Source: Rodentibacter caecimuris
Lineage (GTDB): Bacteria; Pseudomonadota; Gammaproteobacteria; Enterobacterales; Pasteurellaceae
Assembly: GCF_001019715.1 (NCBI RefSeq)
Contig: NZ_BBXJ01000001.1
Location: forward strand, 1,426,001-1,490,000
Length of the DNA: 64,000 nt
Direction of reading: 5' to 3'
The position numbers and the translations under genes were made by a program. Below the pieces are notes generated by a model that made no database searches, was not told the origin of the DNA, and saw nothing but the letters and a program-made list of their open reading frames with translations. Shown piece after piece: positions 4,985 through 61,837 of the stretch. Position 1 is the first letter of the stretch; each line of letters starts with the position of its first letter.

Positions 4985-6505
4985 TTAACGTTTTTTCACG
5001 ATAAAAACGAGTATAACGAGGGATACTGCCGTTGTAATAAACCCGGCCACTCCGGATTCTGTAAAACCAACCGTGATATAACCGATACAACTTGCCATCG
5101 CAACCGTTAAAGCATAAGGTAATTGGGTTGTGACGTGATCCATATGATTACATTTTGCTCCGGTAGAAGAAAGAATCGTTGTATCTGAAACCGGCGAGCA
5201 GTGATCACCACATACAGCTCCAGCCATTACAGCAGAAAGACAAGGCAACATTAATTCCGGTGCTGCATTCATTGCCATTGAGGCTGCAATCGGTAACATA
5301 ATACCAAAGGTTCCCCAACTTGTACCTGTAGAAAATGCCATTGCCGAAGCAAGAATGAATAAGAGAACAGGTAAAAATTGAACGGGTATATTATCAGAAA
5401 CCAAAGAAGACAAATATTTGCCCGTTTGCACATCACCGACAATTTTATTGATTGTCCAAGCAAAAAATAAAATTGCAATTGCCCCTAACATAGATTTAAT
5501 ACCTAGTTTCCATGCACGAGCATACTCAAAAAAACTGATCTGACCATCCAAGATAATCAAAATCGTTGAGATAACGACCGCACTTGAGCCTCCAATAACA
5601 AGAGAGACACCCACATTAGTATTTTCAAAAGCGCCTAATATGGAAAACCGCACACCGGATTTGGCAAGCGTATCGGCACCACTATAGATCATCATTGAAA
5701 CGGTTATGACGATCAAAATCACTATCGGCAGGATCAGACTCCGCACACGACCTTTCGTTCCCAAATCTTCTTCCAACTCATGATTTTCACGCGCCATTGC
5801 TGCTTTTTCATGACGAGCCATGGAAGCGATATCAAATGAAAAATAAGCAACAAAAAATACCATAAGTAAAGCAAAGATCGCATAGTAATTCATTGCACTC
5901 ATTGCCACAAATGCCCCAATTGGCGTGTATTCAGTAATGGAATAGGTGGTTAATAAACCTGCCACTAAGGTAATAATATAAGCTCCCCAACTTGAAACCG
6001 GCGTCATTACACACATCGGTGCAGCAGTAGAATCAAGGATATAAGCTAATTTTGCACGAGAGACCTTGAAACGATCGGTAACAGGACGGGCAATAGCCCC
6101 TACAGCAAGGCTATGAAAATAATCATCAATAAAGGTAACAAAAACCAAAGAAGCGGCTAATAATTTTGCTCCACGGCGATCCTTAATCCGCTTTTGAGCC
6201 CATTCCACAAATGCACGGTTACTACCGGATACCGTTAAAAGTGCGGTTAAAATACCAAGCAAAAGTAAAAAAAGAACAATATTCATATTTGAATTAATTG
6301 CGCCATCATTGTACACCAAGGAAATAATGTTATCTTTCAGATAAATAAGGGTAGGTAAAATTGAGGCATGATTGAGCATCAACGCACCAACTAAAATCCC
6401 TGCGCTCAGGGAAATTAATACACGACGTGTTGCAATCGCTAGTATAATCGCCAGCAATGCGGGAAAAATAGACCAAATTGAAGAAGAATAATCGATAAGT
6501 TCCAT
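4985..6505 (-). CDS. lysW: NhaC-family transporter under lysine riboswitch control (LysW-type)
   Basis: Polytopic inner-membrane protein of 506 residues with about 11-12 hydrophobic segments; a loop near residues 230-250 is charged. It has the look of the NhaC Na+/H+ antiporter superfamily, including the conserved segments FSTGTSWGTFGIMLPIA and CGDHCSPVSDTTILSS. A similar H. influenzae protein is annotated as an Na+/H+ antiporter. The leader is a lysine riboswitch, so the more likely cargo is lysine; comparative work on lysine-box genes named such NhaC-type candidates LysW. The function is inferred from regulation. The start ATG lies in a hairpin stem (see 6501-6529). Confidence 0.75.
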   Translation of the reverse strand: MELIDYSSSIWSIFPALLAIILAIATRRVLISLSAGILVGALMLNHASILPTLIYLKDNIISLVYNDGAINSNMNIVLFLLLLGILTALLTVSGSNRAFVEWAQKRIKDRRGAKLLAASLVFVTFIDDYFHSLAVGAIARPVTDRFKVSRAKLAYILDSTAAPMCVMTPVSSWGAYIITLVAGLLTTYSITEYTPIGAFVAMSAMNYYAIFALLMVFFVAYFSFDIASMARHEKAAMARENHELEEDLGTKGRVRSLILPIVILIVITVSMMIYSGADTLAKSGVRFSILGAFENTNVGVSLVIGGSSAVVISTILIILDGQISFFEYARAWKLGIKSMLGAIAILFFAWTINKIVGDVQTGKYLSSLVSDNIPVQFLPVLLFILASAMAFSTGTSWGTFGIMLPIAASMAMNAAPELMLPCLSAVMAGAVCGDHCSPVSDTTILSSTGAKCNHMDHVTTQLPYALTVAMASCIGYITVGFTESGVAGFITTAVSLVILVFIVKKR

Positions 6506-6554: not shown

Positions 6555-6745
6555 AATGACCCCCACCTAACCGTAGCGCTCCATAGCTATTCACTATGAC
6601 AGTAACGTTCCTTTCAGATACGCCACCAACCAGTTAAAACGACTTTTAACTGATTTCGGCAACTACTCCTTTCCTTTTTCGTCATCGCTATCCACTCGGA
6701 AAAAATACTTATAGTAATCGCACCTCTACTTTGTAAGGAGTCGGA
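6555..6745 (-). promoter_or_regulatory. Lysine riboswitch (L box)
   Basis: On the minus strand the conserved lysine-box blocks occur in order: GUAGAGGUGCG (6729-6719), AGUAGUUGCCGAAAUC, a 9-bp hairpin CAGUUAAAA-GUCG-UUUUAACUG, CUGGUUGGUGGC, GUUACUGUCAUAG and AGCUAUGGAGCGCUAC (ending at 6573). GUAG near the 5' end pairs with CUAC at the 3' end to close P1. The element lies between a predicted promoter and the transporter start. In known members, lysine binding reduces expression of lysine synthesis or uptake genes. Edges are approximate. Confidence 0.93.
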
Positions 6746-47412: not shown

Positions 47413-48543
47413 ATGGCATATACCACTTTCTCACAAACCAAAAACGACCAACTCAAAGAGCCTATGTTCTTTGGTCAAAATGTAAACGTGGCACGTTACG
47501 ATCAACAAAAATATGAGACTTTTGAAAAGCTCATTGAAAAACAACTGTCTTTCTTCTGGCGTCCGGAAGAAGTGGATGTGTCGCAAGATCGTATCGATTA
47601 CGCTGCGTTGCCGGAACATGAAAAACATATTTTCATCAGTAACTTAAAATATCAAACCTTGCTGGATTCTATCCAAGGTCGTAGCCCGAATGTGGCATTA
47701 TTGCCATTGGTATCCATTCCGGAATTGGAAACTTGGATTGAAACATGGACGTTCTCTGAAACCATTCACAGCCGTTCTTACACCCATATTATTCGTAATA
47801 TTGTGAATGATCCGTCTATCGTCTTTGATGATATCGTCACCAACGAAGAAATTATCAAACGTGCACGAGATATTTCTTCTTACTATGATGATTTAATCCG
47901 TGATAGCCAACTTTATAGTTTATACGGAGAAGGCACTTACACGGTAGATGGCAAAGAATGTGTCGTTACCTTACGTAACCTCAAAAGACAGCTTTATCTT
48001 TGCTTAATGAGCGTAAATGCCCTTGAAGCGATCCGTTTCTATGTGTCTTTTGCCTGCTCTTTTGCTTTTGCGGAACGCCAATTAATGGAAGGTAACGCAA
48101 AAATTATTAAATTTATCGCCCGTGACGAAGCGCTACACCTAACTGGGACACAGCATATTTTAAACATTATGGCGGCGGGTCAGGATGATCCTGAAATGGC
48201 GGAAATTGCTGAAGAATGCAAACAGGAAGCCTATGATTTATTCCTTGCTGCGGCGGAACAGGAAAAAGAATGGGCGGATTATTTGTTTAAAGACGGTTCA
48301 ATGATCGGCTTAAACAAAGATATTTTGGTTCAATATGTAGAATATATCACCAACATCCGTATGCAGGCGGTTGGCTTACCATTGCCGTTCCAAGCACGTT
48401 CCAACCCAATCCCTTGGATCAATGCTTGGTTGGTTTCCGATAACGTACAAGTGGCACCACAAGAAGTCGAAGTGAGCTCTTATCTTGTGGGTCAGATTGA
48501 TTCTAAAGTGGATACCAAAGATTTTGGCGATTTCGATCTTTAA
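47413..48543 (+). CDS. nrdB: Class Ia ribonucleotide reductase, beta subunit
   Basis: Diiron-tyrosyl radical subunit, 376 residues. Metal and radical residues can be placed by the motif [12 protein letters not shown]: Glu116, His119 and the radical Tyr123. The second helix pair ([15 protein letters not shown]) supplies Glu and His ligands. The start has AGAGGAAA upstream. The ferredoxin gene yfaE that follows nrdB in E. coli is absent here. Confidence 0.97.
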
Positions 48544-55906: not shown

Positions 55907-57124
55907 ATGCTTTCGTTAGATCAAGCTTTGAACCAGATGCTTAGCCGGCTTCCTTTCCCGACACAATGCGAAACGCTTTCTTTAAGCGAGGCGACAAACC
56001 AGGTATGTGCCGAAGATGTGGTATCCCCAATCAATGTTCCTTCCTTTGATAATTCGGCGATGGATGGCTATGCGGTACGTTTAGCGGATTTGGCGCAATC
56101 ATTAACCCTCTCCGTTGCCGGCAAGTCTTTTGCGGGCAATCCTTTCAACGGTGAATGGATAGCGCAAAGTGCGGTGCGTATTATGACCGGTGCAATGATT
56201 CCTCCAGGTACGGATGCAGTAGTTATGCAGGAACAAGTTGTCGTCAATGAGGACGGTACGATCACACTAAACGAATACCCGAAAGCCAACCAAAACATTC
56301 GCCGTATTGGTGAAGATATAAAAAAAGGTGATATTGTCTTACAACAAGGTGATGCGCTGAATGCCGTGTCCTTACCATTGCTTGCCTCACTCGGTATTGC
56401 TGAAGTAAAAGTTTATCCTCGTTTAAAAGTTGCAGTACTTTCTACCGGAGATGAATTAGTCCAGGTCGGTCAACCATTAAAAGAGGGGCAAATCTACGAC
56501 ACAAACCGTTTCACTATAAAACTTATGCTGCAACAATTAAATTGTGAGGTATTGGATTTGGGTTTATTAGCCGATAACGAAGTTGAATTTGAAAAGGCAT
56601 TTGTTGAAGCCCAACGCCAAGCCGATCTAGTCATTACCAGCGGCGGGGTTTCCGTAGGCGAAGCGGATTTCACCAAAGCCGTGTTAGAAAAAGTCGGTAC
56701 GGTTAATTTCTGGAAAATCGCCATGAAACCGGGCAAACCTTTTGCCTTTGGAAAATTGCAAAATGCTTGGTTCTGCGGATTACCGGGCAATCCGGTTTCA
56801 GCCTTGGTCACGTTCTATCAGCTCGTACAACCGGCAATTTTGCAATTAAGCGGTCAAAAACATCCGAAAAAACAACCGCACTTTACCGCCATCGCAACAA
56901 CCAATTTGAAAAAAGCGCCGGGTCGTTTAGATTTCCAACGGGGTTACTATCAAATGAATGAGAACGGACAAATCGAAGTTCAACCGGTCGGATTCCAAGG
57001 TTCGCATTTATTCAGTTCTTTTGTGAAAAGTAATTGTTTCATCGTATTAGAAAAAGATCGCGGTAATGTTGCTGCCGGTGAAACCGTTACTATTGAACCG
57101 TTTAATCATCTATTGGGGCAATAA
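55907..57124 (+). CDS. moeA: Molybdopterin molybdenumtransferase MoeA
   Basis: Protein of 405 residues that inserts molybdate into adenylylated molybdopterin. Conserved segments include SFDNSAMDGYAVR, GEDIKKGD, TGDELV, TSGGVSVGEADFTK and the GLPGNPVSALVTF motif. The domain order (I-II-III-IV) is complete. It overlaps moeB by one base. Its product is needed for TorZ in this window. Two uptake cores lie inside (about 56166 and 56875). Confidence 0.96.
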   Translation: MLSLDQALNQMLSRLPFPTQCETLSLSEATNQVCAEDVVSPINVPSFDNSAMDGYAVRLADLAQSLTLSVAGKSFAGNPFNGEWIAQSAVRIMTGAMIPPGTDAVVMQEQVVVNEDGTITLNEYPKANQNIRRIGEDIKKGDIVLQQGDALNAVSLPLLASLGIAEVKVYPRLKVAVLSTGDELVQVGQPLKEGQIYDTNRFTIKLMLQQLNCEVLDLGLLADNEVEFEKAFVEAQRQADLVITSGGVSVGEADFTKAVLEKVGTVNFWKIAMKPGKPFAFGKLQNAWFCGLPGNPVSALVTFYQLVQPAILQLSGQKHPKKQPHFTAIATTNLKKAPGRLDFQRGYYQMNENGQIEVQPVGFQGSHLFSSFVKSNCFIVLEKDRGNVAAGETVTIEPFNHLLGQ

Positions 57125-57855
57125 TGTCAACACTAAGCCATGAAGAAGAATTGCGTTATAACCGCCAAATTATTATGAAATCGATTGATTTTGACGGGCA
57201 AGAAAAACTAAAAGGCAGCAAAATGTTGATTGTCGGCTTAGGCGGTTTAGGGTGTGCCGCAGCACAATATCTTGCGGCTGCCGGTGTGGGGCATTTAACC
57301 CTGCTGGATTTTGATCAGGTTTCGCTTTCTAACCTCCAGCGTCAAATACTACATTGTGATGCAAGACTTAATATGCCAAAGGTTGATTCTGCCAAAATTG
57401 CCTTGCAGCAAATCAATCCGCATATTGAGATTGAGACAATTAACGATAAATTGGACGAAGAAAAACTCGGTGAAATTATACCGCACTTTCAGGTTATTCT
57501 TGATTGTACCGATAATGTCGATATCCGTAATCGGCTTGATCGCCAATGTAAGAAAAATCATGTTCCGCTAATTTCCGGTGCAGCAATTCGTATGGAAGGA
57601 CAAGTATCTGTCTTTACTTATGAACCTAACACCCCGACTTACCATGATCTCAGCCAACTTTTCGGGCAAAACGTGTTAAGTTGCGTGGAAGCAGGCGTGC
57701 TCGCACCAATCGTAGGGATTGTAGGTTCGATTCAAGCATTAGAGGCGATTAAGGTTAGATTAAACATTGGTGAGAATTTATCCGGTCGCTTGTTAATGAT
57801 CGATGGGATGACAATGAAAATAAGAGAAATGAGATTACCGATAAAAACGGCTTAA
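57124..57855 (+). CDS. moeB: Molybdopterin-synthase adenylyltransferase MoeB, lacking the zinc cysteines
   Basis: ThiF/E1-type enzyme of 243 residues that adenylates the C-terminus of MoaD. The ATP site is GLGGLGCAAAQYLAAAGVGH, with Arg finger LSNLQRQ and Asp in DCTDNV. E. coli MoeB has two CxxC pairs binding structural zinc (CYRC and CEVC). Here the first is TYHDLS and the protein ends before the second (MRLPIKTA). The conserved LSCVEAGVLAP remains. The gene is otherwise complete and coupled to moeA, so it is probably functional; as I recall H. influenzae MoeB has a similar length. Confidence 0.92.
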   Translation: MSTLSHEEELRYNRQIIMKSIDFDGQEKLKGSKMLIVGLGGLGCAAAQYLAAAGVGHLTLLDFDQVSLSNLQRQILHCDARLNMPKVDSAKIALQQINPHIEIETINDKLDEEKLGEIIPHFQVILDCTDNVDIRNRLDRQCKKNHVPLISGAAIRMEGQVSVFTYEPNTPTYHDLSQLFGQNVLSCVEAGVLAPIVGIVGSIQALEAIKVRLNIGENLSGRLLMIDGMTMKIREMRLPIKTA

Positions 57856-59730: not shown

Positions 59731-60270
59731 TTACTCTTCCAATACAACCTTGCCAATATAGCCTAAGTTGCGATATCGTTGGGCATAATCAATACCGCAG
59801 CCCACAACAAATTCATCAGGAATTTCAAAGCCGACCCATTCCACCGGCACACTAACTTCTCTTCTCGACGGTTTGTCTAATAATGTGCAAATCGCCAAAC
59901 TCGCCGGATCACGTAAATTCAAAATTTCACGAACTTTCTCAAGCGTATAACCGGTATCAATAATGTCTTCGACAATAAGTACATGTTCGCCTCGAATATC
60001 GCCTTCTAAATCTTTGCTGATTTTTACATCATGGTTGGTTGTCATCCCACTACCGTAACTTGATGTTGTCATAAACTCAATTTCTATCGGCAATGCCAAT
60101 TCACGTACTAAATCAGCCATAAAAATAAATGAACCGCGTAATAAGCCAACAACAATCAGTTTATTGACCTGTTTTTGCTGATAAAAAGCCGTAATTTCCT
60201 CTCCCAATGAGGCAATACGCGCTTTCACATCGGCTTCAGAAATTAATACATCAACATGATGTTTTTTCAT
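59731..60270 (-). CDS. hpt: Hypoxanthine phosphoribosyltransferase
   Basis: Purine salvage enzyme of 179 residues. The PRPP-binding motif is [15 protein letters not shown], with the flexible loop [11 protein letters not shown] and the hydrophobic purine-contact segment [20 protein letters not shown]. coli Hpt has the same length within a few residues. A TATAAT at 60318-60313 upstream is its probable -10. The candidate sRNA gene lies just upstream on the same strand. Confidence 0.96.
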
Positions 60271-60330
60271 TTTTTGTCCTTAAATTAAATAATGAGATCA
60301 ATTAGTCCGCCCATTATACAAAGAAAAACA

Positions 60331-60428
60331 AAAAAAAGCTGAAGTTTAAATCTTCAGCTTTTCAACACGGATGAATTTACTTTTACTCTCTACCTGTTGG
60401 AGCAATCTGCAATCGCATCTAAACAGGT
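60331..60428 (-). ncRNA. Candidate Fur-regulated small RNA, RyhB/HrrF-like
   Basis: About 98 bases on the minus strand between tldE and hpt have all parts of an iron-regulated sRNA. A TTGACA/TACTAT promoter overlaps a Fur-like box. The RNA contains GCGAUUGCAGAUUGCUCCA (60416-60398), close to the RyhB core with its doubled AUUGC followed by UCCA. This core sits in the loop of an 8-bp stem (UACCUGUU/AACAGGUA, 60429-60391), then a linker, then a strong terminator (60359-60337). HrrF is a Fur-controlled sRNA known in H. influenzae; I cannot check whether this is its counterpart. Confidence 0.7.
60337..60359. terminator. Terminator of the sRNA and tldE
   Basis: AGCTGAAG and CTTCAGCT pair over 7 bases (perfect 8-bp stem). 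On the minus strand it is followed by seven T. Confidence 0.9.
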
Positions 60429-60434
60429 ATTTGC

Positions 60435-60462
60435 ATAGTAGCAGAATCAATTATTTTGTCAA
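60435..60462 (-). promoter_or_regulatory. Predicted promoter of the Fur-linked sRNA
   Basis: A perfect -35 TTGACA (60462-60457) is followed, after 16 bp, by TACTAT (60440-60435). Transcription would start near 60428. Confidence 0.6.
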
Positions 60463-60476
60463 TAAGAATTATTCTC
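60458..60476 (-). promoter_or_regulatory. Candidate Fur box overlapping the sRNA promoter
   Basis: GAGAATAATTCTTATTGAC scores about 12 of 18 against the three-hexamer Fur model and is an imperfect palindrome. It overlaps the -35 element, where Fur with iron would block RNA polymerase. It lies between the tldE stop and the sRNA. Confidence 0.6.
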
Positions 60477-60481
60477 AAAAA

Positions 60482-61837
60482 TTAATTACCTGAGACTTTC
60501 ATTTTATCTAACAAAATTGAGCCGGTTTGGATATTAGAACGATGCTCCACATCATCACTAATCGCTACGATATTTCTCAGCATATCCGGCAATTGTCCTG
60601 CAATGGTAATCTCAGATACCGGATATTGAATTTCTCCGTTTTCCACCCAAAAACCTGACGCACCACGGGAATAATCACCGGTCACAATATTCACGCCTTG
60701 TCCCATCACATCCGTGACTAATAATCCGGTTCCCATTTCACCTAAAAGTGCGGTCAATCCGCCGGTTAAATTGGGCTGAACCAACCAGTTATGAATCCCA
60801 CCGGCATGACCGGTGCTTTTCATGCCCATTTTTTTACCGCTGTAATGAGTCAATAAATACGTCTGTAAAATACCGTCTTGTACGATTTCCAAATCTTGTG
60901 TGCGTACGCCTTCGCTGTCAAAAGGAGTTGAGGCCAAACGGCTCAACAAATGCGGACGTTCACTAATATTAAACCATGTCGGTAACACTTGTTTCCCTAA
61001 ATGATCTAACAAGAAACTTGATTTACAGTATAAACTTCCCCCACTAATAGCGGCGGCAAAATGTGAAATAATACCTGTCGCCACATCATTTAAAAAGATC
61101 ACCGGTACTTCTCGGGTGGTGAGTTTTTGTGGATTCAAACGGGCAACGACTTTTTTCGCACTATTTTTCCCGACCCATTCTGCCGATTCCAATTTGTTAA
61201 AATTGCGTGAAACTGTATATTCATAGTCATTTTCCAGCCCATCTTCCACCCCACCGATGACCGAACAAGATAAAGAATAACGGCTTGATAAATAACTTTG
61301 CAACATTCCGTGCGTATTGCCATATACACGTACACCCGTATGGGAGTTAAAACTCGCTCCGTTACTATTAACAATTCGTTTATCTGCCTCCAATGCGGCC
61401 TTTTCTGCTTGCAACGCAAGTGCCGTAGCCTTCTCTACATCAATATCAGCAGCGTGATAAAGGGCTAAATCGGCAGCCTCAAATGCCATTAATTCTTTTT
61501 CGGCTAAACCGGTACAATCATCCGGCGAAGTACATTTAGCAATCGCCAAAGCCGCTTCAACGGTATTTTTAATCGCCTGTTCGCTTAAATCGGAAGTTGA
61601 AGCATTGCCTTTTTGTTGTCCTAAATAGACTGAGATCCCAAGTGCGCCGTCATTGGTAAATTCCACGTTTTCAATTTCCTGCAAACGGGTTGAAACGGAT
61701 AACCCGCTCACTTTCGTAACGCCAACCTCGGCGGTCGCTCCGGCTTTTTGGGCGACTGCAAGGGCGACCCCCACCGCTTGACGCAATTCTTGCTCCTGTT
61801 GTTTCAAAAGTGCGGTCTGATTTTCTGCTGTTTTCAT
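60482..61837 (-). CDS. tldE: Metalloprotease subunit TldE (PmbA)
   Basis: Protein of 451 residues, partner of TldD in the heterodimeric protease. TldE itself lacks the HExxxH metal motif, as here, and serves a structural and substrate-channel role. Recognisable stretches are [37 protein letters not shown] and [19 protein letters not shown]. Two uptake cores lie inside the gene. It is divergent from darP. Confidence 0.95.

Follow-up and report, generated by a model that had tools for sequence, protein, structure and literature searches.

A small RNA between tldE and hpt of Rodentibacter caecimuris, very probably the orthologue of HrrF from Haemophilus influenzae

Results

Organization of the locus

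The window, i.e. the whole 64,000-nt stretch of Rodentibacter caecimuris DNA analysed here, has the following features around the tldE-hpt gap:

60482-61837, minus strand: tldE (pmbA), the upstream neighbour
60463-60477, minus strand: Fur-like box TGAGAATAATTCTTA, immediately next to the -35 element, 11 of 14 matches to TGATAATNATTATCA
60457-60462, minus strand: -35 element TTGACA, kept in relatives
60435-60440, minus strand: -10 element TACTAT, 16-bp spacer to the -35 element, similar in relatives
60331-60430, minus strand: hrrF, small RNA (sRNA) of about 100 nt (RF02728), model positions 1-116 of 116, 74.3 bits, below the gathering score of 77
60392-60428, minus strand: 5' hairpin with the closing stem ACCUGUU/AACAGGU and an inner stem-loop GCGAUU-GCA-GAUUGC (the "RyhB-like" piece)
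60373-60393, minus strand: conserved core, mostly unpaired, here GUAGAGAGUAAAAGUAAAUUC
60333-60363, minus strand: intrinsic terminator, a 12-pair stem-loop followed by a T run
59731-60270, minus strand: hpt, the downstream neighbour

Both gene names are taken from the published locus, and we take PmbA to be an alternative name of TldE. Two open reading frames of at least 30 aa are listed in the gap: one of 34 aa at 60346-60450, which starts with TTG and is on the minus strand, and one of 40 aa at 60371-60493 on the plus strand, which extends into tldE. A sequence-only reading of this DNA had described a Fur-like palindrome, TTGACA, a -10 element at 16 bp and a terminator, all on the minus strand, and all are present as first described. 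It also counted about 98 bases of spacer. If the 5' end corresponds to the homologous, mapped start in nontypeable H. influenzae (NTHi), it would be at 60430 or 60428, 52-54 nt past the tldE stop, and the RNA would be about 98-100 nt long. Right after the hrrF terminator and ahead of hpt there is a TATAAT at 60318-60313 (minus strand), and similar elements are seen by eye in relatives, which suggests that hpt has its own predicted promoter, whose upstream part overlaps the hrrF terminator.

Taken singly, these signals are no commoner than chance: we counted 5 promoter-like sites (4.3 expected) and 2 terminator-like sites (1.1 expected) in 59800-61200, and 12 Fur-box-like sites with at most three mismatches in the 64-kb window (8.4 expected). 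Their weight comes from their conservation in relatives. The predicted fold of the hrrF RNA beats 200 of 200 shuffles (z -4.5).

Identification of the RNA as HrrF

HrrF is known as a Fur-regulated sRNA of NTHi strain 86-028NP, encoded between pmbA and hpt and conserved in Pasteurellaceae; it is about 97 nt long, begins 63-65 bp past the pmbA stop, is upregulated by iron chelators and by loss of fur according to Northern blots, and has a stability independent of Hfq (PMC4144887). A Fur pull-down supports Fur control, a 41-bp stretch starting 11 bp past the pmbA stop contains three predicted Fur boxes, and scrambling of box 1 led to a loss of Fur control (PMC4144887). A homologue in Aggregatibacter actinomycetemcomitans is reported to be upregulated on iron restriction and to be a member of the direct Fur regulon.

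At relaxed limits, the RF02728 model matches 60430-60331 (minus strand) from end to end with an E-value of 1.7e-13. The sequence-only reading had proposed a comparison with the published HrrF sequence. The score is 2.7 bits under the Rfam gathering score, and scanning the window with Rfam's default limits therefore misses hrrF and reports the lysine riboswitch alone (see below). The gathering score is an annotation threshold and not a biological trait, and a genuine HrrF can escape such a default scan. We nevertheless file the RNA as an orthologue, since the scores are 90.0-111.7 bits in the ten congeners whose DNA at this locus is 80-90% identical. As published for HrrF, the gene is located between pmbA (tldE) and hpt and is preceded by a predicted Fur box (11/14), and a Fur-family gene is present in the window's genome. 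It shares with HrrF of 86-028NP the locus, the length (about 97-100 nt), the upstream Fur-like box, the 5' closing hairpin, the terminator and the core pieces GUAGAG and AAAGUAAAUUC, but differs from it by a one-base insertion and substitutions in the core and by its predicted start, which is 52-54 instead of 63-65 nt from the stop of the upstream gene.

Sequence identity, locus, promoter and terminator of hrrF are established in the window, and the best explanation is that 60430-60331 is, very probably, the Rodentibacter orthologue of the published HrrF of H. influenzae. The earlier idea of a Fur-controlled sRNA is upheld at the level of sequence and can be narrowed to the HrrF of this lineage by the full-length match, the published locus and the family-wide matches. 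The HrrF family is already known and published, and this copy adds a member; no report of a Rodentibacter HrrF was seen among the papers listed on HrrF and Haemophilus, on Rodentibacter sRNAs, or on Pasteurellaceae sRNAs, RyhB and Fur.

Conservation in the family

Near-full-length matches to the DNA of the tldE-hpt gap (80-90% identity) were found in 11 of the 60 other genomes searched, ten of them among the 14 congeners; with fragments included, 23 of all 61 genomes match. Of 140 family genomes, 109 have an RF02728 match at E ≤ 0.01, and none of 14 controls has one; some of the 109 are weak matches (E 0.001-0.01) and perhaps terminator look-alikes, with the congener G001 among them, and 62 of the 140 are firm, i.e. 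above the cut-off. At E ≤ 10, the model also matches 11 of the 14 controls. Among 20 named loci that were scanned (a subset of 80; four of the 20 are from outside the Pasteurellaceae), six reach the gathering score, those of H. influenzae, H. parainfluenzae (two), Aggregatibacter kilianii, Pasteurella canis and Rodentibacter sp., and R. caecimuris, Histophilus somni and others stay below it. In Volucribacter the core is visible by eye, although the locus is below the gathering score.

The core follows tldE in 75 of 90 loci with tldE (some genomes are represented repeatedly), and 68 of the 75 also have hpt within 900 nt. A Fur-like box with at least 11 of 14 matches is present in 43 of 49 relatives' loci, picked from the 90 to cut repeats, and abuts the -35 element in 42 of the 43. 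The misses are L017, L018, L093, L098, L100 and L101, of which L101 certainly and L100 possibly is an effect of sequence cutting. Fur-like box, promoter and terminator are kept in the tldE-hpt gap of relatives; the sequence-only reading had proposed to check core, box and terminator there. L019 (G018) and L020 (G024) retain Fur box and promoter after tldE and also the tail of the core (AUAAAUUCGUUAGG in L019, GUAAAUUCGUUAGG in L020) but differ in the terminator and over the RNA's 5' half.

The 5' hairpin and the conserved core

The sequence-only reading had placed a RyhB-like core, two AUUGC units and then UCCA, in a hairpin loop. This needs correction: GCGAUUGCAGAUUGC folds into a stem of 6 bp closed by the loop GCA, and most of the two AUUGC units lies in the arms of the stem, not in the loop. 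Of the 38 aligned HrrF RNAs, 15 have the pair of units and 23 lack it; the motif is deleted in L056, and in the remaining rows without it other sequence takes its place. In the closing stem CUGUU/AACAG, 96.9% of cells are paired. One pair has changed from C-G to U-A in 7 of 37 distinct rows, and two pairs have changes on both sides. This covariation is modest, since related rows inflate the counts, 123 of 500 shuffles reach this number of doubly changed pairs, and the 5' end of L100 is predicted to fold differently.

After the hairpin follows GUAGAGUAGAAAGUAAAUUCGUUAG, 25 bases that are exact in 29 of the 38 aligned rows, with AAAGUAAAU exact in 38 of 38. This stretch is mostly unpaired in the predicted folds of the window's RNA and of four relatives. 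Judged by alignment and predicted folding, the real core is this mostly unpaired sequence and not the AUUGC units, and attention shifts from the RyhB-like hairpin to it. Two loci outside the 38 aligned rows vary even in AAAGUAAAU: L019 reads AAAAUAAAU, and L047 reads AAAUUAAAU and was for this reason counted as lacking the core.

In the original report, nt 29-64 of HrrF are given as 100% conserved in the strains that its authors queried (PMC4144887). Compared to this segment, the window's RNA has kept GUAGAG and AAAGUAAAUUC; a single inserted base and several exchanged ones lie between these two pieces and behind them. The inserted base in GUAGAGAGUAAAAGUAAAUUC is seen in only one of the 38 aligned rows. 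In addition, GUUAGGGUU is changed to AUCCGUGUU, a change common to L002 and partly to L003, the nearest congener rows. Some core change is tolerated elsewhere, since 9 of the 38 rows deviate somewhere from the exact 25 bases. The RNA described here is an ordinary family member, slightly worn in its best-conserved stretch.

Loss and replacement of hrrF

In 4 of the 14 congeners (G001, G004, G005, G009), hrrF is absent at the locus, together with a rearrangement of the locus (read after tldE in L070-L073 and upstream of hpt in L103, L106, L104 and L105, respectively). In G004, G005 and G009, tldE is followed by a different, converging frame, presumably ArsC-like, and in G001 the contig stops 212 nt past tldE in unrelated sequence. 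In all four, hpt is found elsewhere, behind a frame that by eye resembles the window's 57124-57855, which we take to be MoeB-like; an HrrF-type terminator is left ahead of hpt in G001, G005 and G009 and part of one in G004. All four retain the Fur gene. The best weak RF02728 match in G001 was considered as a relocated hrrF and rejected as a terminator look-alike, and near a 14-base core match in this genome neither promoter nor hairpin nor terminator could be made out by eye.

Beyond these four, tldE and hpt are still adjacent in G095, with a terminator-like hairpin alone between them, and the gap measures 62-63 bp in G136 and G137. G025 (L075) has kept the Fur box after tldE, along with TTGACA and a -10-like element, but the RNA body, which contains CCTCCCCCC, is not recognisably HrrF; possibly, a different Fur-controlled RNA is encoded at this position.

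Search for target sites

When the hrrF region was deleted in NTHi, expression of modABC, asnA, asnC and nrdB changed, and the published HrrF regulon has modABC down and asnA, asnC and nrdB up (PMC4144887). We compared each genome's own HrrF with positions -120 to +60 of modA (12 genomes), asnA (12) and nrdB (11; G076 was left out because its best match was scored unlike the others) by duplex energies, each start being set at the first Met in its open frame; a conserved pairing site was not recovered in these three genes. Four of the 35 comparisons gave p ≤ 0.03 (modA in G013 and G076, asnA in G012 and G085), among them the asnA leader of G012, which has a long match to the core of G012. We take these four as chance, since the best sites are at differing places across genomes and the 12 asnA leaders have no common site by eye. 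The test is weak because it ignores RNA folding, uses 100 mononucleotide shuffles and tends to long gapped duplexes. The complement of the core (one mismatch allowed) occurs 410 times in 12 genomes and the reversed pattern 393 times, no clear excess. The nrdB gene itself is located in the window at about 47503-48408 (plus strand), about 12 kb from hrrF.

Discussion

Expression, regulation and targets of hrrF in the window's genome are inferred here by analogy with NTHi. With plentiful iron, Fe(II)-Fur would occupy the box beside the -35 element and block transcription. When iron is short, an RNA of about 100 nt would be made from the tldE-hpt gap and end at its own terminator. Its 5' hairpin and terminator would flank the mostly unpaired core GUAGAG...AAAGUAAAUUC, and it is this core that most likely pairs with target mRNAs, whatever the species.

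The sequence-only reading favoured a RyhB-family RNA that spares iron through a core of the type AUUGC...UUGCUCCA. What hrrF shares with RyhB (RF00057) is Fur-type control by a predicted box and a loose likeness across one stretch of 19 columns, where the top local alignment to real RyhB loci brings together columns of the type AUUG..CA.AUUGC.UCCA. But this alignment, done on the sense strand against eight RyhB loci, has a score of 15 that is reached by 8-13% of 1000 mononucleotide shuffles (p 0.08-0.13 for all eight loci), and HrrF relatives do not generally keep the motif. A conserved RyhB core was thus not found in the window's RNA. Nor did the RyhB model, the check suggested at the time, match at E ≤ 10 in 60250-60560 or, with stricter filters, at E ≤ 0.01 in the window's genome. 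Of 148 genomes taken from across the order, 55 have RyhB, and none of these belongs to the window's family; among the misses listed are the window's genome and eight family genomes, and there are 73 further misses. The discoverers of HrrF, in the accessible part of their report, stated no similarity to RyhB (PMC4144887). We therefore reject membership in the RyhB family, which we consider highly improbable, and the likeness is best taken for a coincidence within a single sub-lineage. An iron-sparing function also becomes doubtful, since the published regulon, which concerns molybdate uptake, asparagine synthesis and nrdB, is unlike classical iron sparing. Equally hard to believe is that the region is only an iron-responsive leader of hpt and the sRNA a terminated by-product. 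hrrF is on the strand of hpt and directly upstream of it, but the strong terminator is followed by a separate TATAAT ahead of hpt, the NTHi deletion affected modABC, asnA, asnC and nrdB, and in L020, L032, L033 and L035 the RNA is present but hpt is not found within 900 nt of tldE (L090, L097 and L098 are also counted so, on stretches too short to judge).

An orthologue of HrrF could also be degenerating, i.e. still transcribed but with a drifting core and a weakened or rewired regulation in this lineage. The core insertion found in a single aligned row, the change after AAAGUAAAUUC shared in whole or part by L002 and L003, and the four congeners without hrrF at the locus speak for it; against it, box, promoter, hairpin, GUAGAG, AAAGUAAAUUC and terminator are all present, and deviations from the exact core are seen in other rows, too. 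We regard decay as conceivable, though rather unlikely. With intact, altered and absent states within one genus, it is tempting to speculate that the HrrF regulon of Rodentibacter is being dismantled or rewired, because four of 14 congeners lost the gene and the window's lineage is altered in a core that hardly varies elsewhere in the family; this, too, is a tentative reading with the odds against it. Be that as it may, congeners with HrrF, without it and with an altered core are a natural series for finding its direct targets.

Elsewhere in the window, the lysine riboswitch (RF00168, 133.1 bits) is at 6566-6736 on the minus strand, just upstream of a 506-aa membrane-protein frame (4985-6505) that presumably encodes a lysine-responsive transporter.
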